Positions 7,687-47,140 of a stretch of 47,501 nucleotides of DNA are shown piece after piece. The stretch is from an uncultured Ruminococcus sp. (GTDB taxonomy: Bacteria; Bacillota; Clostridia; Oscillospirales; Ruminococcaceae), in contig CACYSH010000002.1 in the NCBI GenBank assembly GCA_902776945.1, positions 10,818 through 58,318 on the forward strand. The letters run 5' to 3'. Position 1 is the first letter of the stretch. Every line of letters begins with the position of its first letter. The notes below the pieces were generated by a model, which saw only the letters and a program-made list of their open reading frames with translations, was not told the origin of the DNA and ran no database searches. Made by a program: the position numbers and the translations under genes.

Positions 7687-8952
7687 TCAGCAGAAAATTG
7701 TATCAAAGCCCGTCGTTTCGATGATCTCCTTTACGTTGTCGCTTACATTTATCAGGCTGAAACTCTTTTCGTCCTTCACAGCCTTCCTCATTATAAGCAG
7801 CACGCGCAGACCTGCGGAGGAAATGTATTCAAGCTCCTTCATATCAATGGAAATACTTGTGATTTTGCCCTTTGTCTCCGCGTCGCGGTAAGCCGCAAGC
7901 AGTCCGGGCGAGCTTATCGTGTCGAGCCTTCCCGCAAGCGAGATATTCAGCGTATCATCGGTCAGCTTTACATCAGCCTTGAAATTATCCTCGGAGCAGG
8001 CAAATTCCTCGACCGTGCCGGGCTTTGCGGTCATTACCCAGTAATTCACCGAACGCATGATCTCCATTGCCTTTTCCTGTTCTTCGGGGGACATACCCTT
8101 TAAAGAGTTCAGCTCCTTCGGCAGAAATCTGCTCATCGGTACAAGCTCCAGCTCAAAGCCCATATCCGACACGAATTTTTTCGCTTTTTCCGTATCCTTA
8201 TCAAAGAATACAGTATTAGCCAGAGTAGTCTTGGAAATTGCGCCTGCGGCAATATCCTGGATCCTGCCCGAATCGCTGCCGTTCATATCCGCCATTATCG
8301 CCGCTACGATCTTATTGGGTATATCTGTAAGCGCATTATCGAGCGTGACCCACTTGCCGCCAAATTCGAGCAGCAGCTTTCTTATGTTGCCGAAAACGGT
8401 CTCAAGCTCGGACTGGGTGAAGTACATCAGCAGACCCTCTGTCGTGATGTGCAGCTCTCCCTCCGCGCACGAAAGCGCCTTTCTCAGCGAAGCGTAATTG
8501 GTCGCGTCAACCTCGCTGTAAGTGATGTTATTATCGTCGATAAGCTCCTTTACGGCGGGAGATATAGCGTCGATAACGGCAGGAAGATCGAAACCGAAGT
8601 ACCTGATACCGCTCTTTGCGAGCTTTATCCCTCGCGAAGTATAGCCGCAGGGCAGGTCGAGAACCTGCTTAACGCCCGTTTCAGTAATGAAATTATTCGA
8701 GGAAAAAAAGCGAGCCTCAACGATAGAGTTCAGCGCGGGCATCATCTTATATAACAGCCGAAGTGTTTCTTCGGGTATCTCAACCTTTCTTGCCTTTGAA
8801 TCCTCGCCGAATACCGCAAATCCGAGCTTTTTGCGCAGCTCCTCGGAATCCTTGTCGCCGATCTTAGCCACGATCTGCAAGCAAGACTGCGCGGTGCTGT
8901 AAACGGGGTTGACTTCCTCTCTCAGCTTTTCAATGTTGATAGTGTCTGACAT
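7687..8952 (-). CDS. SAM methyltransferase-STAS domain fusion
   Basis: A 421-residue cytoplasmic fusion. Residues about 60-320 resemble leucine-carboxyl-type class I methyltransferases, with SAM motif I VLDLPCGYT at 97-105 and FGFDLPAVI just after. Residues about 325-421 are a STAS domain of the anti-sigma-factor-antagonist type, with the signature YISSAGLRVLL; Ser378/Ser379 are the candidate phosphorylation residues. STAS proteins switch partner proteins in phospho-dependent signalling, so the methyltransferase may be controlled by, or recruited through, a partner switch. No anti-sigma kinase is adjacent. The ATG at 8952 follows GGAGG at nine bases; a TTG at 8967 has no binding site. It is divergent from the hydrolase gene and both have the tandem operator. 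Confidence 0.85.
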   Translation of the reverse strand: MSDTINIEKLREEVNPVYSTAQSCLQIVAKIGDKDSEELRKKLGFAVFGEDSKARKVEIPEETLRLLYKMMPALNSIVEARFFSSNNFITETGVKQVLDLPCGYTSRGIKLAKSGIRYFGFDLPAVIDAISPAVKELIDDNNITYSEVDATNYASLRKALSCAEGELHITTEGLLMYFTQSELETVFGNIRKLLLEFGGKWVTLDNALTDIPNKIVAAIMADMNGSDSGRIQDIAAGAISKTTLANTVFFDKDTEKAKKFVSDMGFELELVPMSRFLPKELNSLKGMSPEEQEKAMEIMRSVNYWVMTAKPGTVEEFACSEDNFKADVKLTDDTLNISLAGRLDTISSPGLLAAYRDAETKGKITSISIDMKELEYISSAGLRVLLIMRKAVKDEKSFSLINVSDNVKEIIETTGFDTIFC

Positions 8953-9024
8953 GATGTTATCCTCCAAATTATGTTTATTCAGCTATAACAGTTGTTTTAC
9001 TAACTGTTCTTAACTGTTGAGAAA

Positions 9025-10562: not shown

Positions 10563-10586
10563 TTATATTTTTAAGGAGTGATAGTA

Positions 10587-13463
10587 GTGCAGCATTCAAA
10601 AATGAAGAAGATCATCAGCGGTATCGTTTCTCTGATGATGATAGCGGCGACCGTTCCGCTTACGGTAAGCGCCGATGGTTGGGATTGGAGCGGCTTTGCG
10701 GGCGGCTTCCCTACCACCGGAAATGAAACCATCGGCTCGGACGCGGGCAACGGCGGCAACGCTGTATCGGGTCTTAACGCCAAGATAAAGAACGATATGC
10801 CGACGACCGTTCCCTACGGCGCTGAAGTGTCGAGTCAGTGCAAGGTCGAGAAAAAGACCTATTACTGCAAGTACACAGGCAAGAACAAACAGTGCAACGT
10901 TATCCTGCCCCCCAACTACAATCCAAGCAAGAAATACCCCGTAATGTTTGTACTGCACGGTATCATGGGCAGCGAGAACGACATGGTGAACGGCATGGGC
11001 GTTCAGGAACTTATGACAGGTCTTATGACCAGCGGTCAGGCGGAGGAGTTCATCGTTGTTACCCCCAATATGTTCACGAGCAAGACCATGAACGGTCCCT
11101 CCGGCATCAATCAGCAGACCTGCGCCGAGTACGATAACTTCCTTTACGACGTTACCGAAAGCCTTCTCCCCTACATCAAGGAAAACTATTCCGTTAAGGA
11201 AGGCAGAGAGAACACCGCTATAACAGGCTTCTCTATGGGCGGTCGTGAAGCTGTCTACTGCGGACTTATGCGCCCCGACGTATTCGGATATGTGGGCGGA
11301 GCTTGCCCTGCGCCCGGAATCACTCCCGGCGTGGACGGTTTCATGACTCATCCCGGCTGTATGCAGGAAAGCGAAATGAAGTTCCGCAGCGTGGATCCCG
11401 AGCCTGAGGTATTCATGATAACAGGCGGTACAAACGACGGTACTGTCGGCACCTTCCCCAAGCAGTACAGCGATATTCTCACCCGCAACGGCGTTAATCA
11501 CGTTTACCAGTCTATCCCGGGCGGCGGTCACGACGCTAACTCCGTCAAGCCCCATTTGTATACGTTCATGCGCTATGCCTTCAAAACCGACGGCAGCAGC
11601 AGCGGCGGCGGCAATGTAACACGCGAAAAGATGAAGCTGTGGGGCGATGCGAACTGCGACGGCAAGGTTGACATCAAGGACTATGTTCTTGTTATGCAGT
11701 CAGTAAATAAACCCTCTAAATACACGCTTACCGAACAGGGCATCGGCAATGCCGACGTTGTAAATACCGGCAACGGCGTTGACAAGGAGGACGGCTATGC
11801 CATTCTTGAGCGTATCACCGGCAGTTCTTCCGGCGGTGACACTCCCCCCGCAAATGTTGCTCTGAGCGATAATTTCGATTCAGGCGCAGGCAACTGGGGA
11901 GGCAGAGGCGCAGTTACCGTTTCCGCGACCGATGCGGCATATTACGGCAAGTCGGGCAAGTCGCTCTATGTTTCGGGCAGGACCTCCGAATGGAACGGCG
12001 CGGCTGTAAATCTCGGCTCCGAATTTAAAGCTGGTCAGACATACAGCGTAAGTGCTGCGGCTCTCCAGACCTCCGGCAGAGACGCTGAGATACAGATCTC
12101 TCTCCAGCAGGGCGGCAATAACGGCACAACCGCCGTATATACTCATATTGCCACTGTTTCCTGCAAGAGCGGCGAGTGGACAAAGATCGAGAACACCTCG
12201 TTCACTATCCCCGACAACGCGGGCGATATAGTGCTTTATGTCGAGACAGTTTCCGGCTCGGGTGATCTTATGGACTTCTATATTGACAATGTTATGATGG
12301 CGGCTGAGGGTACGAAATCTTCGGTAAAGACAGGCGGTACGGGCAAGGTTCCCGGACAGGGCGGCGGTTCCTCCACCCCCTCCGACCCTACCAAGTGGGA
12401 TAATTATCAGGAGACCGCTTCGGCTCAGTATATCGACTTCTACAAAAGCTCGATAAAGAACATGGGCAATACTTACAGACTTTCTCAGAAGCTCAATGCC
12501 GCCGAAAACGGTTCGCCGCTGACGGTAGCTTATCTGGGCGGCTCGATCACCGAAGGCAAGAACTATACCACGCCTTTCTCGAACTACCTCAAAAACACCT
12601 TTGCCAAGGGCAGCTTCAAGGAAATAAACGCGGGTCTTTCGGGTACCTCCTCCGTTGTCGGACTTGTCCGCAGCGAAAAGCAGATAGTTGAGCAGAAGCC
12701 CGACATCATCTTCCTCGAATTTTCGGTAAACGACCATGAGGACATTCTTTACAAGAAGTGTTTCGAGAGCTGCATAAAGAAGTTCCTTGATATGCCGAAC
12801 GCTCCTGCGGTATGCGTACTCATCAACCGTGCGCAGGGCGGCTTCTCCAGTCAGAATCAGATGTATCCTATCGGCAAGAACTTCAATATCCCCGTAATCA
12901 GCATGGACGACGCGCTGACTAAGGCATTCAACAGCGGATTCCTCAAAGCGAGCGACTACTACACCGACGAGTATCACCCGCATGAAAAAGGCGGTCAGCT
13001 TATCGCCGACTGCATGGCTTATTATGTCCGTCAGGCGTTAAAGAGCGCCAACAGCTCCTCCGGCTATACTCAGCCTACAAGCTATGTATACGGTGCGGAG
13101 TACGCAAGCTGCGTAAACGTTGACCCCAAGAATCTGACCAACTTCAACGCGGGTTCGTGGTCTTCGGGTACAGGCTACGGCACGGGCTTAACGTATGGAT
13201 ACACGCTCAACGGCGGCAGCCCGATGACCTTCAAGACGCAGGGCAAGGGTCTTATCATCGTATTCAAGGCGAACAGCAACGGCATGGGCAGCATTGACGT
13301 TACCGTAAACGGCAAGACCACCAAGATAAACGGCAACAAGCTGTACACATGGGGCGGTCCCGACGCAGAGCTGGGCTATTATCAGGATACGACCGGCGAC
13401 CTTAACGTTTCTATCAGCGGCAGCGGTTCGTTCACGATCTGGGGCATGGGTCTCATAAAGTAA
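10587..13463 (+). CDS. Secreted two-esterase cellulosomal protein: CE1-like, dockerin, CBM22-like, SGNH esterase
   Basis: A 958-residue secreted enzyme. In order: signal peptide (1 to about 29); CE1-type alpha/beta hydrolase (about 90-345; Ser216 in GFSMGG, Asp284 candidate, His315); a type I dockerin in the middle (353-412, GDANCDGKVDIKDY and a degenerate second calcium loop); a CBM22-like beta-sandwich (427-575); an SGNH esterase (about 640-820; Ser653 in GGSITEG, Asn715 in SVND, Asp794 and His797 in DEYHPH); and a beta-rich C-terminal module (823-958). Families with these parts remove acetyl or feruloyl groups from xylan. The dockerin should attach it to a cohesin scaffold. The start GTG 10587 lies eight bases after AAGGAG; GTG 10578 is too close. 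Confidence 0.92.
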   Translation: MQHSKMKKIISGIVSLMMIAATVPLTVSADGWDWSGFAGGFPTTGNETIGSDAGNGGNAVSGLNAKIKNDMPTTVPYGAEVSSQCKVEKKTYYCKYTGKNKQCNVILPPNYNPSKKYPVMFVLHGIMGSENDMVNGMGVQELMTGLMTSGQAEEFIVVTPNMFTSKTMNGPSGINQQTCAEYDNFLYDVTESLLPYIKENYSVKEGRENTAITGFSMGGREAVYCGLMRPDVFGYVGGACPAPGITPGVDGFMTHPGCMQESEMKFRSVDPEPEVFMITGGTNDGTVGTFPKQYSDILTRNGVNHVYQSIPGGGHDANSVKPHLYTFMRYAFKTDGSSSGGGNVTREKMKLWGDANCDGKVDIKDYVLVMQSVNKPSKYTLTEQGIGNADVVNTGNGVDKEDGYAILERITGSSSGGDTPPANVALSDNFDSGAGNWGGRGAVTVSATDAAYYGKSGKSLYVSGRTSEWNGAAVNLGSEFKAGQTYSVSAAALQTSGRDAEIQISLQQGGNNGTTAVYTHIATVSCKSGEWTKIENTSFTIPDNAGDIVLYVETVSGSGDLMDFYIDNVMMAAEGTKSSVKTGGTGKVPGQGGGSSTPSDPTKWDNYQETASAQYIDFYKSSIKNMGNTYRLSQKLNAAENGSPLTVAYLGGSITEGKNYTTPFSNYLKNTFAKGSFKEINAGLSGTSSVVGLVRSEKQIVEQKPDIIFLEFSVNDHEDILYKKCFESCIKKFLDMPNAPAVCVLINRAQGGFSSQNQMYPIGKNFNIPVISMDDALTKAFNSGFLKASDYYTDEYHPHEKGGQLIADCMAYYVRQALKSANSSSGYTQPTSYVYGAEYASCVNVDPKNLTNFNAGSWSSGTGYGTGLTYGYTLNGGSPMTFKTQGKGLIIVFKANSNGMGSIDVTVNGKTTKINGNKLYTWGGPDAELGYYQDTTGDLNVSISGSGSFTIWGMGLIK

Positions 13464-15599: not shown

Positions 15600-15815
15600 T
15601 AATTAGACGTTCGCGGAGAGCGTTTCGGCACCTATCTCCCGAAATGTGCGGAACTCCGTGCTTGCTTTATACTCAGCGTGATGATTTTTATATAAAAGTA
15701 AACTAATATATATAAGAATATTATCATGCACCCAGCGGCTTTCATGCCGGGGAACGAGTTTGTTTGTCTGTCGCGGAACACGGGCGTTTCGCCCGGCGCG
15801 GCTTGTTGTATTGCT
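15600..15815 (+). ncRNA. Long, possibly structured leader of the mannanase mRNA
   Basis: Three GC-rich foldable parts occur: TTTCGG/CCGAAA inside CGGAG/CTCCG (about 15614-15657), CGGC-TTTCAT-GCCG flanked by CCC and GGG (about 15732-15752), and CGGGCG-TTT-CGCCCG (about 15780-15796). I do not recognise a known riboswitch. Confidence 0.4.
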
Positions 15816-15837
15816 ATATTTAGGAGGATGTATCATC

Positions 15838-17661
15838 ATGAAATGCAGATTTAAGAGGTTCATTTCGGCACTGGCGGCTTCTGCGGTATCGTTGACGGCT
15901 TTTTCGGGCGTTATGCCTGTTTCGGCTGCCGGAACGGCGGATTCCTTCCCCTTCGTCATCGAGGGCGAGGACATGGAGGGCGCTTCTCTCTGGACGCAGA
16001 ACTACGGTCCCGCGCCTAAGAACAGCTCGGGCAAAGGCTTCTATTATATGACCGGCGGTTCCGCGTCGTTTACCGTGACCGTGCCGGAAGACGGTATGTA
16101 CACTATCGTCGCAAGGGCGGCGCAAGTCCTCAACACCGGAGGCAGAGACGAGACCGTTTCCGTAAACGGCGTAAAGCGCAGGCTTATCATGCCCTATTCG
16201 GAAGAGTGGGTGGATTTCAGCTTCGGCAGCTTCCGTCTTAACAAGGGCGTGAATACTATCGAATTTGTCAACGAATACGGCTATATGGCTATCGACAAGG
16301 TGACTGTAAGCGCCACCCCCAAGCACGATTATTCCGTTGCTACGTCCGAGCTTACCGACAAGAACGCTACCCCCGAAGCACGCTCGCTTATGGCTTACTT
16401 AAAGAGCGTTTACGGTCAGCACATAATCTCGGGTCAGCAGGAGATCTACGGCGGCGGTCACAAGAACAACTATGAATGGGAAAACGAGTTCCTCGAAGAC
16501 CTCACGGGCAAAGTTCCCGCTATCAAGGGCGTTGACTTCATGAACTACAACCCGCTCTACGGCTGGGACGACGGCACCACCGAGCGCTGCATCGAGTGGG
16601 CGACCAAGAGAAACGGTATCATTACCGCTTCGTGGCATATCAATATCCCGAAGGATTTCGATAACTACACTCTCGGCGAGCCGGTAGGCTGGCAGGAATG
16701 CTCCTACAAGAATTATCAGAGCGGTCAGGGTTCTCTCAGCTTCGACACGCGCAATGTTGTTATAGAAGGTACTAAGGAATACGATTATTTCCAGCTTGCT
16801 ATGGAAGACCTTGCGGAACAGCTGCTGAAATTGCAGGACGCGGGCGTTCCCGTTATCTGGAGACCTCTGCACGAAGCGCAGGGCAACGAGGGCAATTACC
16901 CCGACGGCACGGCGTGGTTCTGGTGGGGCGACAGAGGAGCCGAGACCTACAAAAAGATATGGAAGCTGCTCTATACCACTCTCACCGAAAAGTACGGTCT
17001 GCACAACCTTATTTGGGAATATAACAGCTATGATTATTACAACTCGGCTACATGGTATCCCGGCGATGAGTATGTAGACATAGTGGCTTACGACAAGTAT
17101 AACGTAGAGTACAACAGGGGCGACGGCAAGTCGAGCGGTCCCAATCTGCTTGCGATACCCGCGAAGTTCGATTCGCTGTATGCGCTGACAGGCGGCAAGA
17201 AAATGGTAGCAATGGCAGAGAACGACACTATCCCCGCGCTTGACAATCTGCTCGTTGAGGACGCGGGCTGGCTGTATTTCTGCCCCTGGTACGACGGTGG
17301 CGAGGACGGCGGCACAGCATTTCTCGGCACGAATTATCAGGATCATGATGAGCTGAAAAAGATTTATCAGAGCGAATACTGCATCACTCTTGACGAGCTG
17401 CCTGCCGACCTGTACAAGAACGGCGGCGCGGCTTCCTCTGACGGTGCTGTGCTTTACGGCGATGCTAACTGCGACGGTGTTGTTAATCTTGCCGACGCTG
17501 TGCTTATCAGGAAGTATGTTGCCGCTCCGAAGAAGACCGAGATCACCGCGCAGGGCAAGGCGAACGGAGATGTTACGGGTAACGGCGACGGTCTTACGAA
17601 GGAAGATGCCGAAATGATTCAGAAATATTGCATGGGAATGATACAGCTGCCGAAGAAATAA
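15838..17661 (+). CDS. Secreted GH26 beta-mannanase with CBM35-like module and dockerin
   Basis: A 607-residue secreted enzyme. It has a signal peptide (cleavage near VSA-AG, residue 30); a CBM6/35-like module (about 39-160, FVIEGEDMEG start); a GH26 catalytic domain (about 177-520); and a C-terminal type I dockerin (541-600, GDANCDGVVNLADA and GNGDGLTKEDA). The acid/base should be Glu346 in RPLHE. The nucleophile should be Glu461 in MVAMAEND. GH26 enzymes cut beta-1,4-mannan; the dockerin anchors the enzyme to a scaffold. The ATG at 15838 follows AGGAGG; an upstream in-frame reading runs through the structured leader and was rejected. Together with the esterase it forms a plant-wall-degrading pair. 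Confidence 0.95.
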   Translation: MKCRFKRFISALAASAVSLTAFSGVMPVSAAGTADSFPFVIEGEDMEGASLWTQNYGPAPKNSSGKGFYYMTGGSASFTVTVPEDGMYTIVARAAQVLNTGGRDETVSVNGVKRRLIMPYSEEWVDFSFGSFRLNKGVNTIEFVNEYGYMAIDKVTVSATPKHDYSVATSELTDKNATPEARSLMAYLKSVYGQHIISGQQEIYGGGHKNNYEWENEFLEDLTGKVPAIKGVDFMNYNPLYGWDDGTTERCIEWATKRNGIITASWHINIPKDFDNYTLGEPVGWQECSYKNYQSGQGSLSFDTRNVVIEGTKEYDYFQLAMEDLAEQLLKLQDAGVPVIWRPLHEAQGNEGNYPDGTAWFWWGDRGAETYKKIWKLLYTTLTEKYGLHNLIWEYNSYDYYNSATWYPGDEYVDIVAYDKYNVEYNRGDGKSSGPNLLAIPAKFDSLYALTGGKKMVAMAENDTIPALDNLLVEDAGWLYFCPWYDGGEDGGTAFLGTNYQDHDELKKIYQSEYCITLDELPADLYKNGGAASSDGAVLYGDANCDGVVNLADAVLIRKYVAAPKKTEITAQGKANGDVTGNGDGLTKEDAEMIQKYCMGMIQLPKK

Positions 17662-28585: not shown

Positions 28586-31327
28586 ATGATTATCAAAAAA
28601 CTGATCGCGGCTGTGTGTACGCTTTGCCTGGCGGTTTCCATTGTTTCTCCGCAGGCGTTTGCGGAAGCAAAAATACCGGACGAGGAGACCGAATTTATCA
28701 TGAACAAGATCTTCATTGACGGCAGCACCGCAAACCGCTCCGAAAACAGCCGCTGGCGGGGATTCGGATTTATCAGCGCGAACAATTCCTCGCGGCTGCT
28801 GCTTGATTATAAATACGAAAACCCCGATGTCTACCGCCGTCTGCTTGTCAAAATGTTTTCGCCCGACGGTCCCGTAAGAATGAATCATCTTAAAATAGAA
28901 CTGGGCGCGGATATTAATTCTTCCAGCGGCACCGAGCCTTCAACGATGAGGTCGGCTGACGAATCCGCCGATGTCACAAGGGGCATGGGCTTTCAGCTTG
29001 CGGCAGATGCAAAGGCGATAAATCCTTCTCTGACGCTGGAGCTGCTTTCGTGGGGTGCGCCGGGCTTTGTCAACAACGCGGCTACCGACAAGGAGCGCTA
29101 TGAGCTGCGGTATCAGTGGTTCAAGAAGACCCTCGACGCGGCTTATGACACCTACGGACTGAAATTCGACTATATCGACCCGAATTACAACGAACGCTCC
29201 GTTGACGCTCGCTGGATAAAGTATTTTTCCAAAAAACTGAAAAACGAGAAAAAAGCGCCATACGATTACAGCAAAATAAAAATTGTCGCGGCTGACGAAG
29301 ACGCGGTTTACAACACCGCGCAGAATATGCTCGACGACCCCGATCTGCTCGACGCGGTGGACGTTATAGGTATCCACTACACCTCAACGAGCGACGACAA
29401 CACCAGGCGCTGCAAATTTTCATTCGGTAAGGAGCTTTGGTACAGCGAGGGGCTTTCACCCGCAAAATCCGAAAAGTACGCCGTAAACGCGGGCGAATCG
29501 GGTATCAGCGGCATCAATTCGGTGCTTGACGTAGCGGGCAGGATAGTCAATATGTACCCGAACGGCAGTTTTACGATGTATGAATTTCAGCCCGCCGTCG
29601 CGGCGTATTATAACGGAGCGAATTATTTTCCCAAGCAGCTCGTTACCGCGAACGAACCGTGGTCGGGCTATACCGAAACGGGCGCGGGTATGTATATGTG
29701 CGAGCATTTCAGCCTGTTTACCCGTGCGGGGTGGCAGTTTGTGGATAGCGCCTGCTACGGCGACGGCGTGGAATCGCAGCACACGCTTACCGATACGAAA
29801 AACAATTATCTTACGCTTATCGACCCCGAAACGGGCGACTACTCAACGATATTTGTAAATAATACCAATATTCAGCGCAACTATACCATTACGGTGAAAA
29901 ACTTAGCGCAGGCGGATAAGCCCGTTGACGTATGGGAGACACGCGGTCCCGACCCGGGCGAAAGCTATAATTCAAATTACATGAAAAAAATCATCTCTAT
30001 CGAGCCGACCGAAAACGGCGAGGGAGATTACACCTATAAGCTGACCGTCAAGCCGTATTCCATGATAACGTTATCGACGCTTCAGGTCACGGTGCCGGAC
30101 CTTACAACAGAGGAAAAAAGCCGCCGTCTGACGCTTCCCTATACCGACAATTACGAATATGACGACCGCGACGAGAATTATCTCTCCTCGCGTGGATACG
30201 CTCCGAGATACACCACTGATATTGGCGGAGCGTTCGAGGTGGTCAAGGACAATTCCCGCGGACACGTTCTGCGGCAGATGATAACAGCTAATACTAAAGG
30301 CAGGGAGTGGGGAGCCACGCCCGATCCCGTGACGACCTTCGGCGACGACACATGGGCTAATTACGGCATTTCGACAGATATTAAATTCGACAGACCGCTT
30401 GAAAGAAGCTATGAGCCGTCTTCAAACTATGTCGGCGTAGGGCTGAGGTATATAAACGGCTCGGCGGCAGGCTCAAAAAGCGGCTACTGGCTGAAACTGA
30501 GTGCGAACGGCACATGGTCGCTGAATCACATGATGGAAAGCCTTGCAAGCGGAACGATAGAGGATTTCGATGTGAGCATATGGCACAAGCTGTCTGTGAC
30601 CGCATCGGGGGACGTTATCACAGCGGCGATCGACAATAATCAGGTTGCAGTCGCAAAAGTCGAAAAGAACGTCAGCATTTCGGGGCGGGCGGCTTTTTAC
30701 AGCGCCTACTACAAAAACAGCTTTGACGACCTTAACATAATCCCTTTAGAAATGATAAGCAATTATGTCGTAAGGCTCGACGAGCTTGACAGCCGTATAA
30801 TTTACGAGGGCGAATGGGAACACAACACTATGGCTTCCTTCACCAACCACAACCGCACCGTTTCCACGAGCGTAAACAACAGCTCTTTTTCATTCAACTT
30901 TGAGGGAGACAGCCTTGCGCTTATCGGCACGGGTACGGACGGGCGGATAAATGTTGAGATAGACGGCAAGCTGGTCGCCGAGAATGAGCTTGCGCGTTCT
31001 ATCGTTGACAAGGCGGCGCTGTGGTTCCGATATGGTCTCGGCAACGGCGAGCATGAAGCAAAGGTTCGCGTAGTTTCGGGAACGATAAACCTTGACGCGG
31101 TGGAATACGGGAGCAATACGGTACTTAAAAACGGCGATGTTTCGGAGGGATGTATTGAAAATATTGCTTTGAGCGAAGACGAATATCCCGAAGAAGAGAA
31201 AAAAAAGACGACTAAACCGAATATAAAGAATGACCGAAGGCTGTTGGCGGCGGCGGGACTTGCTATTATAGTGCTGCTTATTGCCGGACATTCGGTAATA
31301 ACGAGGATCTCGAGGCGAAGAAAATAA
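28586..31327 (+). CDS. GH59-type (galactocerebrosidase-like) glycosidase with C-terminal membrane anchor
   Basis: A 913-residue surface enzyme. It has a signal peptide (1 to about 26). The GH59 catalytic barrel follows (about 38-370), recognised from RGFGFISANNSSRLLLDY, HHLK-like NHLKIELGAD and SGTEPSTM. The acid/base is Glu203 in NYNERS and the nucleophile is Glu288 in LWYSEG. A beta-sandwich follows (about 375-500), then a LamG/ConA-like domain (about 515-700) and another beta-rich module (about 715-860). An acidic/lysine linker leads to a TM helix (886-905) and a basic tail. Known GH59 members hydrolyse terminal beta-galactosides. It lacks a dockerin and is held in the membrane instead. 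The ATG follows GGAGG. Confidence 0.88.
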   Translation: MIIKKLIAAVCTLCLAVSIVSPQAFAEAKIPDEETEFIMNKIFIDGSTANRSENSRWRGFGFISANNSSRLLLDYKYENPDVYRRLLVKMFSPDGPVRMNHLKIELGADINSSSGTEPSTMRSADESADVTRGMGFQLAADAKAINPSLTLELLSWGAPGFVNNAATDKERYELRYQWFKKTLDAAYDTYGLKFDYIDPNYNERSVDARWIKYFSKKLKNEKKAPYDYSKIKIVAADEDAVYNTAQNMLDDPDLLDAVDVIGIHYTSTSDDNTRRCKFSFGKELWYSEGLSPAKSEKYAVNAGESGISGINSVLDVAGRIVNMYPNGSFTMYEFQPAVAAYYNGANYFPKQLVTANEPWSGYTETGAGMYMCEHFSLFTRAGWQFVDSACYGDGVESQHTLTDTKNNYLTLIDPETGDYSTIFVNNTNIQRNYTITVKNLAQADKPVDVWETRGPDPGESYNSNYMKKIISIEPTENGEGDYTYKLTVKPYSMITLSTLQVTVPDLTTEEKSRRLTLPYTDNYEYDDRDENYLSSRGYAPRYTTDIGGAFEVVKDNSRGHVLRQMITANTKGREWGATPDPVTTFGDDTWANYGISTDIKFDRPLERSYEPSSNYVGVGLRYINGSAAGSKSGYWLKLSANGTWSLNHMMESLASGTIEDFDVSIWHKLSVTASGDVITAAIDNNQVAVAKVEKNVSISGRAAFYSAYYKNSFDDLNIIPLEMISNYVVRLDELDSRIIYEGEWEHNTMASFTNHNRTVSTSVNNSSFSFNFEGDSLALIGTGTDGRINVEIDGKLVAENELARSIVDKAALWFRYGLGNGEHEAKVRVVSGTINLDAVEYGSNTVLKNGDVSEGCIENIALSEDEYPEEEKKKTTKPNIKNDRRLLAAAGLAIIVLLIAGHSVITRISRRRK

Positions 31328-42128: not shown

Positions 42129-44411
42129 TTATCTTAATCTTGTGGCTACACCGTCCGTATCGAACGAATACAATCCGTCATCAATCCTCTTCTGAGTATT
42201 CGTAACAGGAACACCACTTGAATCTGTATAATAAAGTCGGTTATTATAACTGATCCAGCCTTCCTTGACATATCCCTCGGCACCGATCACAAACGATTTG
42301 CCTTCGTTATCGTAGAATGTACCCCTAACCACCGAGCCGTGATCGAGGAAATAGTTGTGTCCGTCAATGCTCGTCCAGCCGTTTTTAAGCCTTCCGTCCG
42401 AACCGAAATAATACCACGCATCGTTGATCTGCGTCCACCCCGATACCATACGGGCGTTACTGTCAAAATAATAGGTGCCGTCCGAAAGATTCAGCCAGGA
42501 ATTTTTTAACGCGCCCTCTTCGGTCATATAAATTCTGTCGGAATTGTTCTTCTGCCAGCCCGTCAGTATCTCGCCGTTTGTGCCGAAATAGTACAGTGCG
42601 CCGTTTACCTCGCGCCAGCCCTTGCAGGTATTGCCGCTTTCATCGAAATAGTATAACTTTCCGTCAAGCCGCCCGAAAACGTTCATGCCATAGCGATTAT
42701 CTGCCAGAACATACTTATAGGAGCTGCCTACCTTTGTAACACCCGTAGGCAGATGTCCCTTAGAGCCGAAATCGTACATCTTGCCTTCTACCTTCACCTT
42801 GCCGACCGCGCAAACGCCGAACTCGCCGAAGTAATACTTTTTCCCCGCCAGCGTTTTCCAGCCCGTGACCTTTTCGCCTGTAACAGGGTCAAAGTAGAAC
42901 CTTATTCCGTTGTAGGTCTGCCAGCCTGTCTTGACCGTATGATCGTCGCCGAAGAAATGCTGTCCGAACAGCTTGTCGCCTATCTTGGTGTACGCCATAG
43001 CGTTGAGATATTCGTAGCTGTCGGAGGTCTGATAGGTGTTCCACAGCGTTTCGCAGTATTTAGCCTGCTTTTCGGTATAGCCGAAGTCGATCAGCTTTTT
43101 GATGAACTCGGAGCTTTTTTCGCCGTAATCGCTCGCGGATTCCGGCGGAAGATCGGGCAGACCGAGCGAAGTCTTTACATCGCCGAACTTTGTAAGGTTT
43201 TCCAAATCCTTCTTGAATTTCTTAATGGTCTTTTCCTGCTCTTCGGTAAAATCAATAGTCTTGGTAAGACCGCGTGCAGAACGGTGGGTCGCCTGATCGA
43301 AGAACCACCAGTAGCCCTTGAAATTGTAAAAGCCCTGCCATACCTTGCCGTCCTCGCCGAAATAGTACCAGTCGTCGCCGTCCTGATACCAGTCAACCTG
43401 CAAATCGTTAGTTTCGGGGTCGAAGAAGTAGTAATCATAATCGAGCTTTATAAAGCCCGAAGCCGCCGAGCCGTCCGCCGTAAAGTAATACTTGTTAAGA
43501 TTTTCCTCGTACCAGCAGTCGTGGAGCATTTTGCCGTCCTTGTCGAAACGGTATTTTTTGCCGTCTACCTCAACCCAGCCTGTTTTCATGTAGTAGCTGC
43601 TGTCAAAGAAGTAGGTGTCGTCGCCGATCTTTGTCAGCCCGACCGAAAAAGCGCCTGTTTTCTCGTCGGCATAAAGATAATACTTATCGACCATGCGCCA
43701 GCCCTTGAAAAGGTTTCCTGTCTGTCCGAAATCGTAGGTAACGCCCTTTATCGTATGGATACCGGTGAACATATGTCCGTCAGCGCCGAAATAATAGGTA
43801 TAAGTTTCGCCGTCAACCTCGATGTCCTGCCAGCCTTTTGCCATTTTGCCCTTGTTCTTGCCGTCCTCGAAGAAATAATACTGTATGCCGTTTATGGTCT
43901 GCCAGCCGATAACGCGCTTACCGTCCTTGTCGTAATAGTTTTCGCCGTTTCTGGTAAAGCCGTTGCCGGGCATACCATGCTCGTCGAAGTAGAACTGCTC
44001 GCCGTTCAAGTCCTGCAAGCCCGTTTTGAAAACGCCCGATTCGTCGGCAAAGTAGAAGTCCTCGCCGTCTATCTTTACGATTCCCTTAGCCATTACGCCC
44101 GATTCGTCGAAATAATAGTTATTGCCGTCATACTTCTGCCAGCCTGTTTTCATAATGCCGTTGAGGTCGAACAGATACGAAGCGTTGTCTATCATTTTAA
44201 GCCCGACGGCGCGTTCGCCGTTGGAGCGCAGGATATAGTATGTTCCCGAAACACTTGTATGCCAGCCGGGAGCGCGAGTTTCCTTATAATCAAAATAAGC
44301 CATGAACCCCGCGCCGACACCGACGGTGCAGACTGCCGCGACTGCCGCCGCCGCAAGCCGTCCCTTATGGGTAGGGAGGGTAAAAGCCATCAGATTTTTA
44401 TTAATACTCAT
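42129..44411 (-). CDS. Large cell-wall-binding-repeat surface protein
   Basis: A 760-residue protein. An N-terminal membrane or signal segment (about 18-38, GRLAAAAVAAVCTVGVGAG) is followed by more than 25 repeats of about 20 residues with the pattern GW...G..YYFD..G, the CW_binding_1 (choline/glucan-binding) type. A helical insert (about 385-475, FTEEQEKTIKKFKKDLENL) interrupts the array. No enzyme domain is visible. Such repeats bind choline on teichoic acids or alpha-glucans in other Firmicutes. The ATG at 44411 has only a weak binding site (GGGAAAG); the longer upstream reading enters the promoter and was rejected. Terminator-like sequence after the gene is not obvious. Confidence 0.85.
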   Translation of the reverse strand: MSINKNLMAFTLPTHKGRLAAAAVAAVCTVGVGAGFMAYFDYKETRAPGWHTSVSGTYYILRSNGERAVGLKMIDNASYLFDLNGIMKTGWQKYDGNNYYFDESGVMAKGIVKIDGEDFYFADESGVFKTGLQDLNGEQFYFDEHGMPGNGFTRNGENYYDKDGKRVIGWQTINGIQYYFFEDGKNKGKMAKGWQDIEVDGETYTYYFGADGHMFTGIHTIKGVTYDFGQTGNLFKGWRMVDKYYLYADEKTGAFSVGLTKIGDDTYFFDSSYYMKTGWVEVDGKKYRFDKDGKMLHDCWYEENLNKYYFTADGSAASGFIKLDYDYYFFDPETNDLQVDWYQDGDDWYYFGEDGKVWQGFYNFKGYWWFFDQATHRSARGLTKTIDFTEEQEKTIKKFKKDLENLTKFGDVKTSLGLPDLPPESASDYGEKSSEFIKKLIDFGYTEKQAKYCETLWNTYQTSDSYEYLNAMAYTKIGDKLFGQHFFGDDHTVKTGWQTYNGIRFYFDPVTGEKVTGWKTLAGKKYYFGEFGVCAVGKVKVEGKMYDFGSKGHLPTGVTKVGSSYKYVLADNRYGMNVFGRLDGKLYYFDESGNTCKGWREVNGALYYFGTNGEILTGWQKNNSDRIYMTEEGALKNSWLNLSDGTYYFDSNARMVSGWTQINDAWYYFGSDGRLKNGWTSIDGHNYFLDHGSVVRGTFYDNEGKSFVIGAEGYVKEGWISYNNRLYYTDSSGVPVTNTQKRIDDGLYSFDTDGVATRLR

Positions 44412-44459
44412 TTCATCATCTTTCCCGAAAACAATAAAAATATATAAACGTACCTTGTT

Positions 44460-44488
44460 ATTATACCACATTCCCTGCGAAAAGTCAA
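44460..44488 (-). promoter_or_regulatory. Promoter of the wall-binding-repeat protein
   Basis: On the minus strand TTGACT (44483-44488), 17 bases, TATAAT (44460-44465). Confidence 0.88.
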
Positions 44489-44693
44489 ACCCTTTAAGCG
44501 GCAATCCGTTTGGTTTCACATAATTTTCATTATAACGGCACAGCTTTTTGACCTGACGAAAAAAATATAGTATTAGGAAGGGTGCGGCACGAGCAAGCTC
44601 GTGCAAGGGGAACCCCTTCTTCAGAATGGTTTCCACCACAAAACCGTACCTCCCAAGTCTCATAAAAAACAGCAAGCAGCATTTCCGACCAAA

Positions 44694-44934: not shown

Positions 44935-45084
44935 GAAAACGTAGTCTGCAACAAAACGCCTTGAACAAAACGACGATTATTTCGTTTGCAAGAAGCAAAT
45001 ATTTGTGCAACGCTACAAATATCATTCCGATATGTTAGGATTTGAACTTCTCGCGCAATTAGTAGACAGGGAGGTGAGAAAGGC

Positions 45085-45597
45085 TTGACAAACCAAACAT
45101 CAAATACCGACGATCTCACCGCGGTGATCGGTCGGTACAGAGAGCTTGTCTACGGCTTGGCGCTGGCGGAAACAAACTGCCGCGCCGACGCTGACGACGT
45201 TTATCAGGAGGTCTTCCTGCTTTACTATACGAAAGACCTGACCTTCACGGATGAGAAGGCGCGCCGCTCATGGCTTATCCGTGCCTGCATAAACATCTCA
45301 CATACCTATAACAAAAGCTCATGGTACAAAAGGCGCTCCGATGAGGAAATGGACGAGATTCCCGACGAGCGCTCCTACAACACGCCCGCCGAGCAGGAAA
45401 TGTGGCAGGCGGTCAAGTCGCTGAAACCAAAGTACCGTGTGCCTGTGTATATGTACTACTTCGAGGGCATACCTCCCGCAGAGATCGCCGAAACGCTCGG
45501 CATTTCGGCAGGAGCGCTCGGAATGCGGCTTTCCCGCGCAAGAAAGCTGCTTAAAGATAAAATGAGGGAGAGTGGTTATTTTGAAAAAACTGTTTGA
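45085..45597 (+). CDS. ECF-type RNA polymerase sigma factor
   Basis: A 170-residue sigma-70-family factor. Region 2 lies at about 13-80 (YRELVYGLALAETNCRADADDVYQEVFLLYY and the -10-recognition part ending LIRACINISHTY). Region 4 lies at about 105-160 (LKPKYRVPVYMYYFEGIPPAEIAETLGISAGALGMRLSRARKLL, a helix-turn-helix for the -35). No region 3. The start is TTG at 45085, ten bases after GGAGG. It overlaps the anti-sigma gene by 17 bases, so the two are translationally coupled. It should switch on an envelope-stress or surface regulon whose promoters are not obvious in this window. Confidence 0.93.
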   Translation: MTNQTSNTDDLTAVIGRYRELVYGLALAETNCRADADDVYQEVFLLYYTKDLTFTDEKARRSWLIRACINISHTYNKSSWYKRRSDEEMDEIPDERSYNTPAEQEMWQAVKSLKPKYRVPVYMYYFEGIPPAEIAETLGISAGALGMRLSRARKLLKDKMRESGYFEKTV

Positions 45598-47140
45598 AGA
45601 TATTCGCAGACAGAATAAGCCTGACCTCTCGCTCGACAGACAGATACTCGAAAGAGCGAAAACGATGAGGGCAGGCAAAAAAGAAATTCTGTCCGAAAAA
45701 GGAAAGGAACATATCGAGATGAAAGTATCAATGAATAAGGCGGAAAGCACCGAAACCGCCATAGTAAAAAAGAATCACGGTGCGCTTATCGCTGCGGCTG
45801 CCGCGTTTGTACTCGTTATTGGAGGAACTGCCGCCGCCGCGCTCAAAGGCTCAATGCCGATCGAAAAGGTCAGCGAAAGTGCCGCAAGCTCTGTGAGCGA
45901 ATCGTCAGTTGAAAGCAGCTCGCTGAACGAGCCTGCCGTCATCAGAACGCCCGCCGTTACGCCCGTTTCCGACAGCTCAGCGGCTCCGACCGACGAAGTA
46001 ACCGTCGAAACGCTGCAGGTCACAACAGTTACCAAAACAAACGAGGAACCAATGCCGCCTTCGACCGATCCCGTTGCCGGATGGGCAAAGCCGTTTCTTG
46101 CAAGGAACTCCGACATGGTGGGAAATATCCACATCCCAGGCTTTGATAACGACTATGAAGTAATAGATTTCCCGGTCGTTCAGAGAAGCGGCATCGGCTG
46201 GCAGTATTATCTCGACCACGATTTTAGCGGGGACGAATACCGCAGAGGAACGCTCGTTGCACCCGACGTAAACGGCAGAAATACCATCTCCCCGGAGGGT
46301 CAGCCGAGAAATACCGTGATCTACGGCTACAACGCCTTCGACGAGTTCCCCGAGACCGACGAGATCTACGACGAGAAAAATCGCGGGCTGATGTTCACCG
46401 GGCTTACGAGGTATCAGCTGGGTATTGATTTCTACCGCGAACACGCGCTTATCGACTACAAGACCATATACGGGGACGACGGCGAATATGTGATATTCGC
46501 GGTATTCAATCATGAGGGCGGCGAGGAGCAAATTTTCACGGCGAACGCTTTCGGCTACGAGGAACACGGCTTTGACGAATGGCTCGCCGCCGTTAGGGAA
46601 CACAGCTTTTATGAATGCGACATAAACTGCACCGCCGACGACAAGTACCTCACGCTGATAACGCCCGTTCACCCGGAGTACGACACAGACTATTACCGCA
46701 CCGTTATTGCAAAGAAGCTCACACCGCAGGACGACAAGCAGGCGATAATCAACAGCGTGAAGATGAAAAGCACGGACAGCGACGAAAACTCGCAGGAGGA
46801 CACGTTAGACATAAAAGAAACCCGCCTGCCGATACCAATCCCTTCGGAAGCAACAGGAACGTATGTTTTTGATATTTATGTTGACGGCACTCTGTCCTAC
46901 ACCAAAACCGTAACCGATGCCGAGGCTCTCGATGTAAACTTCACATATTTTGATATATCTATGAATGTAGCCGAAGTCAAGTCGGAGAACCTTGCCGTCT
47001 ATGTCAAATCAATGGATCTTGGAGAGGAAAACTATGTATACTACGGAGATTGTACGATAAGCTATGACGAAAACGCAGGCTTTTCTTTGGATTCGAGATT
47101 TGACGAAGAGGCGATACTCAGCATAACGCCCGACGAGTGA
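45581..47140 (+). CDS. Membrane anti-sigma factor with a catalytically dead sortase B-like ectodomain
   Basis: A 519-residue single-pass protein. The cytoplasmic part (1-65, KKLFEDIRRQNKPDLSLDRQ) should bind the sigma factor. One TM segment is at about 66-90. A Ser/Thr/Val-rich linker follows (about 95-170). Residues about 178-380 follow the sortase B fold (NIHIPGFDNDYEVIDFPVVQ, QYYLDHDF, GTLVAPD, NTVIYGYN, YVIFAVFN, FDEWLAAVREHSFYE, YLTLITP, YRTVIAK). The catalytic His of the family's YGHN is Tyr250, and the Cys of TLSTC is Pro362; the Arg position is kept (Arg373). A further beta-rich domain (about 400-510) ends it. The TTG at 45581 follows GGGAG; GTG 45572 is too close. It is probably a sensor, not an enzyme. 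Confidence 0.82.
   Translation: MKKLFEDIRRQNKPDLSLDRQILERAKTMRAGKKEILSEKGKEHIEMKVSMNKAESTETAIVKKNHGALIAAAAAFVLVIGGTAAAALKGSMPIEKVSESAASSVSESSVESSSLNEPAVIRTPAVTPVSDSSAAPTDEVTVETLQVTTVTKTNEEPMPPSTDPVAGWAKPFLARNSDMVGNIHIPGFDNDYEVIDFPVVQRSGIGWQYYLDHDFSGDEYRRGTLVAPDVNGRNTISPEGQPRNTVIYGYNAFDEFPETDEIYDEKNRGLMFTGLTRYQLGIDFYREHALIDYKTIYGDDGEYVIFAVFNHEGGEEQIFTANAFGYEEHGFDEWLAAVREHSFYECDINCTADDKYLTLITPVHPEYDTDYYRTVIAKKLTPQDDKQAIINSVKMKSTDSDENSQEDTLDIKETRLPIPIPSEATGTYVFDIYVDGTLSYTKTVTDAEALDVNFTYFDISMNVAEVKSENLAVYVKSMDLGEENYVYYGDCTISYDENAGFSLDSRFDEEAILSITPDE

Follow-up and report, generated by a model that had tools for sequence, protein, structure and literature searches.

The last two genes of the window, as the analysed stretch of 47,501 nucleotides of Ruminococcus sp. 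DNA is called here, encode an ECF sigma factor and a membrane protein with a class B sortase fold from which the catalytic His and Cys are gone. It is fairly probable that the two genes form a unit in which the ectodomain of the membrane protein, made up of this pseudosortase and a domain shared with a Ser/Thr kinase, senses a cell wall-derived ligand. By analogy with known systems, the membrane protein would probably hold the sigma factor inactive, with the dead sortase serving as the outside sensor.

The end of the window is also the end of the contig, and all features of the gene pair lie on the + strand. The sigma factor gene (45085..45597) has a TTG start and encodes 170 amino acids. Its product matches the sigma70-ECF superfamily model TIGR02937 with an E value of 3.6e-22 (NCBIfam) as well as Sigma70_r2 (3.4e-7) and Sigma70_r4_2 (1.2e-15), both above the Pfam cut-offs, so that the ECF model and the matches to both regions, 2 and 4, place it among the ECF sigma factors. 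The second gene (45581..47140) encodes 519 amino acids. Its TTG start at position 45581 is preceded, ten bases ahead, by the ribosome-binding-like sequence GAGGGAG (45564-45570), and its stop codon ends at 47140. The two reading frames overlap at 45581-45597; both the ECF identity and the 17-base overlap had been read in this way in the initial annotation and are confirmed. The 519-amino acid protein is composed of a short N-terminus (amino acids 1-66, 45581..45778), which is the presumed sigma-binding part, a single hydrophobic, presumably transmembrane segment read from the sequence (approximately amino acids 67-90, 45779..45850), the pseudosortase domain (approximately amino acids 160-385, 46058..46735) and a C-terminal domain of beta strands (approximately amino acids 405-519, 46793..47137).

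The pseudosortase domain, which was delimited by TIGR03064, Foldseek and alignments, scores 61.7 bits (6.2e-17) with the SrtB model TIGR03064 of NCBIfam, under the cut-off of 153.75. This cut-off does not discriminate here, because the intact SrtB encoded in this genome (P0004) scores below it as well, with 115.1 bits. The best phmmer match in the PDB is the sortase B Lmo2181 (4.4e-6), other SrtBs being weaker. The AlphaFold2 model of the ectodomain, based on a five-row alignment, is of moderate quality (mean pLDDT 69.8, pTM 0.58) and is recognized by Foldseek as a sortase barrel. The best PDB match is sortase B of S. aureus (4lfd, E 3.0e-12), and sortases occupy all of the first 17 PDB rows (E 3.0e-12 to 2.3e-8), 15 under a title of sortase B, class B or similar and two (4ux7 and 5gyj) as C. 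difficile sortase.

Two of the three catalytic residues are missing from this fold. According to sequence and alignment, the position of the catalytic His is occupied by Tyr250 (codon TAC, 46328..46330) and that of the Cys by Pro362 (codon CCC, 46664..46666), while the catalytic Arg is kept as Arg373 (46697..46699), which aligns one column off in the larger tables. Right after the lost His, the protein carries an insertion of about 13 residues, counted by hand on the alignment as the net difference from intact SrtB (46337..46375; pLDDT 34-35); it is also present in the closest orthologue, L021. A sortase B fold with Tyr250 and Pro362 in place of the catalytic pair and with Arg373 retained had been proposed from the sequence in the initial annotation. 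The structure prediction bears out the fold, the numbering is exact in the TTG-start protein, and, with regard to the misalignment considered at that time, comparison with 103 intact relatives finds neither His nor Cys in or beside the catalytic columns of the window protein. The tabulation of homologues that had been suggested as a check extends the loss to a whole family, and the pairing with an ECF sigma gene likewise holds at all of its checkable loci, as described below.

Profile searches covered 66 genomes, namely 13 of the genus, 29 and 16 of two related genera, and one and seven of two more. At least 13 pseudosortase proteins were found in 12 of these genomes, distributed over three genera; the 1 + 7 genomes of the two further genera yielded no member. 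Beside the window protein, the members are those of the loci L021, L022, L023, L024, L025, L105/L129, L188, L189, L190, L191, L205 and L206, and the named carriers are Ruminococcus sp. RUI065, RUG14273 and YE71. Partial matches under the 1e-8 threshold (e.g., L096, L097, and L101) were left out. Of nine other members scanned, eight match TIGR03064 with an E value of 1e-3 or less, L023 being weak and L191 the exception. The table of catalytic residues comprises 118 sortase domains, with L014 and L087, in which the Cys region is missing, set aside; an earlier version contained 77 domains, with L097 set aside in addition to these two. The catalytic Cys is absent from all 13 members and the His from 11 of them (L024 and L189 retain it), as opposed to an intact His/Cys/Arg set in each of the 103 other complete sortase domains. 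In L022, a Cys directly precedes the Cys column, yet the His column is occupied by Asn. The Arg is kept in 12 of 13 members and lost only in L206, if a slip of one column is allowed for the window protein, L021 and L022. In L188, L189, L190, L191, L205 and L206, the members from the two other genera, a long stretch that follows the N-terminal module and precedes the pseudosortase (residues from about 115 to 350) is without family match. In genome G192, an in-frame TGA lies between the N-terminal and membrane segments (L129:5600-5846, - strand), and the pseudosortase gene (L129/L105) is broken or split there.

An ECF sigma gene adjoins 12 of the 13 members, which are all the loci where this can be checked, since L024, the remaining one, begins at the end of a contig. 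At 79 loci of intact sortases, most of them with 1.5 kb of flank, no sigma gene was found with the sigma profile of this family, a profile that would miss remote kinds of sigma factor. On the stretch L084, an ECF pair (L084:4323-6456, - strand) lies approximately 8 kb from an intact sortase; the 79-locus check did not register it because this sortase was represented there by the shorter locus L008. The second protein of that pair has a PASTA match (1e-12), the kinase tail described below and a weak sortase match (1.4e-4); it is possibly a further decayed member and is excluded from the count. Intact SrtB is encoded in all 13 genomes of the genus, the copy in G002 being cut by the contig end.

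In trees, the dead domains group together with a support of 99 for seven members and 81 for all 13, and the group sits inside the Ruminococcus-type SrtBs (node support 99 in the smaller and 95 in the larger tree). Because the branches are long, a single origin can be called likely but not proven. Among the 24 columns that are conserved across both intact SrtB groups, four drop furthest in the dead rows: His (15% retention), Cys (0%), the Ser located two residues ahead of the Cys (38%), and a Tyr, residue 321 of the window protein (38%). The remaining 20 are retained in 62-100% of the members. When the 66 columns conserved in Ruminococcus-type SrtBs are considered, average retention is 54% in the dead rows, compared with 61% in the other intact group; 20 of the 66 are retained in a quarter or fewer of the dead rows. 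Between the window and L021, the one measurable pair, dN/dS is 0.31 for the sortase part and 0.18 for the sigma gene, whereas intact SrtB, compared between these genomes, is under much stronger constraint (0.04). The C-terminal tail is less constrained than the sortase part (0.47 versus 0.31), with dS values of 1.06 for the tail and 0.45 for the sortase part; most other comparisons of modules were saturated. From these sequence comparisons, the pseudosortase looks like a retained pseudoenzyme and not like decay.

The assignment of the second protein as a membrane anti-sigma factor is presumptive. Pfam and NCBIfam searches of the window protein gave no anti-sigma family at an E value of 1, and the RsgI N-terminal domain likewise gave no match at that value. 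With neither a recognizable ASDI domain nor an HxxxCxxC zinc motif in its sequence, the protein falls outside the class I (ASDI) anti-sigma factors as usually delimited; ASDI domains can be without the zinc motif, as stated in PMC7406223. Since no known anti-sigma domain was detected in the N-terminus, sigma binding is suggested by the gene pairing, which is conserved at the 12 checkable loci. According to profile matches, amino acids 1-66 are common to paralogues that bear other ectodomains. Neither this N-terminal segment nor the C-terminal tail was detected by profile searches in L024 and L105, which therefore represent a second subtype. The sigma factor beside L105 matches the sigma profile of the family at 1e-8 only; together with the architecture of L024 and L105, this suggests that sigma partners were swapped or that more than one fusion event took place. 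L130, a locus with an intact sortase, matches the N-terminal profile weakly (0.0014).

The last approximately 115 residues of the window protein show a match to the C-terminal domain of another protein of this genome, 780 residues long, which consists of a Ser/Thr kinase and three PASTA stretches according to Pfam. This kinship was absent from the initial annotation. The window protein itself contains neither kinase nor PASTA domain and is connected to the PASTA kinases by the tail domain alone. The tail is modelled as beta strands with a pLDDT of 89.4. Its second-ranking Foldseek match is the extracellular region of PrkC (3py9); with an E value of 8.9e-3 and no match under 1e-3, the structural comparison is consistent with the kinase kinship and goes no further. 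Profile searches did not detect the tail in L024, L105 and L191, and it is marginal in L025. Ten members were scanned for PASTA domains with Pfam, L021, L022 and L105 being left out, and six of them have a PASTA-like stretch. In L023, a clear PASTA domain (3e-12) lies between sortase and tail; the matches in L188, L189, L190, L205 and L206 range from 6.4e-7 to 6e-4, with L188, L190 and L205 passing the Pfam cut-off and L189 and L206 missing it. At the thresholds used, no match was obtained in the window protein, L024, L025 and L191.

Other ECF pairs bear the kinase tail without a detected sortase. The pair at L098 (L098:6902-8317 with L098:8310-8876, both on the - strand) consists of an ECF-like sigma gene and, following it, a gene whose product combines three PASTA domains with the kinase tail. 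Pfam gives no kinase match in this protein, and it is apparently a PASTA anti-sigma factor. A second ECF/anti-sigma pair with kinase tail is found in the window's own genome (L093:3998-6380, G000:C138); its second protein has a PASTA match below the cut-off and a middle part without assigned kind. The occurrence of the tail in several ECF-paired proteins suggests that the genus has re-used the outward parts of the kinase in several presumed anti-sigma factors.

Upstream of the sigma gene, two elements are shared with relatives. The element TTTGTGCA-N4-TACAAA (45002..45022, + strand) is common to the upstream regions of this gene and of several paralogues. Allowing up to three mismatches, 208 such sites occur in the window's own genome versus 53 for the reversed control. 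On this genome-wide count it was rejected as a sigma-specific regulon marker, and it looks, from its sequence distribution, like a widespread promoter or operator element. No common theme was apparent among the genes behind these sites in the 30 loci inspected, which were read on one strand and, for many, with a weaker site. The second element, GTTAG-N19-ATTAGTA (45034..45064, + strand), is a candidate autoregulatory promoter put forward from comparison: several members and paralogues have GTTA[GC]-N18/19-ATTAGTA, or a sequence close to it, ahead of their sigma genes. The pattern GTTAS-N18/19-ATTAGTA, stricter than the first element, has six sites in four genomes, as compared to six control sites, and none in G001. 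In four of the six cases, the site is located ahead of a sigma gene from the pseudosortase family or its paralogues, a placement that fits autoregulation, which is plausible for the sigma/pseudosortase operon. Searches with this motif gave no further regulon member. Because no regulon was found, the link between anchoring status and transcription drawn in the initial annotation stays an inference.

The neighbourhood of the gene pairs contains genes of fibre degradation. GH9 cellulase genes are located approximately 0.9-2.5 kb from four of the 13 pairs (L023, L025, L188, and L189), and a GH59 gene is near L190. By hand arithmetic, with about 8 GH9 genes per 4 Mb, approximately 0.3 of 13 loci would be expected to have a GH9 gene within 6 kb by chance; the four observed are suggestive, the proximity having been noted post hoc, with L188 and L189 belonging to one genus and several loci being short contigs. 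The genomes of the four pairs have 7 to 11 GH9 matches each, fragments included, within a range of 0 to 11 across the 12 member genomes. At its own locus, the window pair has no adjoining cellulase. Divergent to and upstream of its sigma gene, the window encodes a protein with many cell-wall repeats of the choline-binding type (42129-44675, - strand), and the protein encoded at L021:4646-6928, upstream of the L021 pair, has a nearly identical N-terminus. Likely plant-fibre enzymes elsewhere in the window are an Esterase/CBM_4_9/GDSL protein (10578-13463), a GH26 protein with a match to a cellulosome dockerin (15760-17661), and a GH59 protein whose C-terminus contains a hydrophobic stretch, as read from the sequence (28586-31327). 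A STAS domain fused to a weak methyltransferase match (LCM, below cut-off) is encoded at 7687-8967 (- strand).

Among known systems, class B sortases (SrtB; TIGR03064, Pfam Sortase) share with the window protein the fold, the N-terminal hydrophobic segment and the Arg, in line with its kinship to SrtB of the genus. The window protein differs in being without catalytic His or Cys, in its pairing with an ECF gene, and in the setting of the domain between a presumed sigma-binding segment and the kinase-tail domain. With the PASTA kinases PrkC, Stk1 and PknB, it shares the C-terminal domain, several of its relatives also having PASTA domains, but it is without a kinase domain and its output is presumably the sigma factor. 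RsiV is a lysozyme receptor and differs in this from the window protein with its sortase fold. RsiV is not known to have a sortase fold. The RsiV-SigV system nevertheless follows the same plan, in which an ECF sigma factor is kept by a membrane anti-sigma factor and the latter binds directly to a protein from outside, according to PMC4183432. The closest precedent for an enzyme domain in such a place is RsgI6 of Clostridium thermocellum, described in PMC4711584 as a membrane anti-sigma factor with a near-inactive GH10 domain as sensor. RsgI proteins work with SigI-type sigma factors and have carbohydrate-binding or GH ectodomains, whereas the window pair has an ECF sigma factor, a sortase fold and no RsgI match. 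In the open-licence literature, as far as covered by titles and the starts of abstracts of top-ranked papers, no earlier description of a sortase-fold or PASTA anti-sigma factor was found. The re-use of enzyme folds as anti-sigma sensors is known already; what is new, as far as searched, is a sortase fold in that place.

In the proposed mechanism, the cytoplasmic N-terminus of the product of the overlapping gene would hold the ECF sigma factor at the membrane. The former class B sortase outside would no longer cut or join peptides, with the fold kept and, in most members, the Arg; the domain derived from the PASTA kinase would sit after it. As receptor, this ectodomain would bind peptidoglycan, a lipid-linked precursor or an uncleaved sorting signal, which are the likeliest ligands because a wall-anchoring fold is combined with parts of a kinase of the wall-binding type. 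When the ligand binds or is lost, the conformation or the access of a protease may change, whereupon the sigma factor would be released and would act on its own operon, on surface or wall genes and, in some relatives, perhaps on neighbouring cellulases.

Where in the ectodomain the signal would be read allows several more specific interpretations. A sensor of wall or lipid II, acting through PASTA and kinase-tail modules with the pseudosortase mainly as a spacer or as a surface for binding a partner such as SrtB or the kinase, is possible though by itself rather unlikely; the related ECF pairs at L093 and, with three PASTA domains, at L098 argue for it, while the stronger constraint on the sortase part than on the tail between the window and L021 and the lack of a detectable tail in some members argue against it. 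Somewhat more doubtful is that the dead pocket binds sorting signals, which were among the ligands named in the initial annotation, on secreted proteins still awaiting processing by intact SrtB, a backlog of which would free the sigma factor and raise sortase or anchoring capacity. The fold and kinship shared with the SrtB present throughout the genus, the Arg kept in nearly all members and the sortase-anchored scaffoldins reported for Ruminococcus in PMC11557425 and PMC12484212 are in its favour. It is weakened by the insertion beside the lost His in the window protein and L021, by the frequent loss of the Ser and Tyr mentioned above, and by the result that profile searches detected no second sortase domain in the stretches examined around the 13 members. 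The kinase tail and the PASTA-like stretches in six of ten members make a signal from the wall or its precursors no less probable than a sorting signal, even though activation of PASTA proteins by muropeptides is itself debated, as PMC5786024 indicates.

An RsgI-like sensor of polysaccharides, by which the ectodomain would report plant fibre and the sigma factor would control cellulases, is improbable. The GH9 genes near four pairs would agree with it, as would the statement in PMC11557425 that RsgI sensors are used only by Acetivibrio-type cellulosome makers. The post hoc character of the GH9 observation and the lack of an adjoining cellulase at the window's own locus count against it, as does the finding that the scanned ectodomains contain no carbohydrate-binding family at the Pfam cut-off (NPCBM stays below it with 0.05 in L190 and 0.09 in L098). 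Moreover, member genome G335 has no GH9 gene at all, three others have one each, and the shared upstream element was not found ahead of the GH9 genes. A chance fusion, in which a copy of a sortase is rotting behind an unrelated sigma gene, is very unlikely: long branches, the catalytic loss, the depletion of 20 of 66 other conserved columns and the in-frame TGA in L129/L105 are what decay would produce, but the frames of the other members are open, dN/dS is 0.31, the pan-SrtB core columns are kept, and in each of three genera the arrangement comes with a neighbour of the same type.

Returning to the receptor for a wall-derived ligand, a more far-reaching proposal, advanced tentatively, is that in fibre-degrading ruminococci the pseudosortase and kinase tail read the supply of wall precursors or the load of unanchored surface proteins and set the expression of the surface or fibre-degrading machinery via the ECF sigma factor. 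A role in this machinery is attractive but unproven; its attraction derives from the GH9, GH59 and wall-repeat neighbours combined with the published picture of Ruminococcus as sortase-anchoring and of RsgI sensors as confined to Acetivibrio-type cellulosome makers.

Sortases have been studied as enzymes and drug targets. A family in which a non-catalytic sortase fold has been retained in the presumed role of an anti-sigma sensor would reveal which ligands the fold can bind once it no longer cuts. If the proposed reading is true, this would be the first regulatory pseudosortase, as far as literature searches show, and a Ruminococcus counterpart to the RsgI sensors of Acetivibrio. The gene pair is also a candidate system through which cells could monitor protein anchoring or the state of wall precursors, and through which surface machinery may be controlled in those cellulosome makers that anchor by sortase and that reportedly (PMC11557425) are without RsgI sensors.
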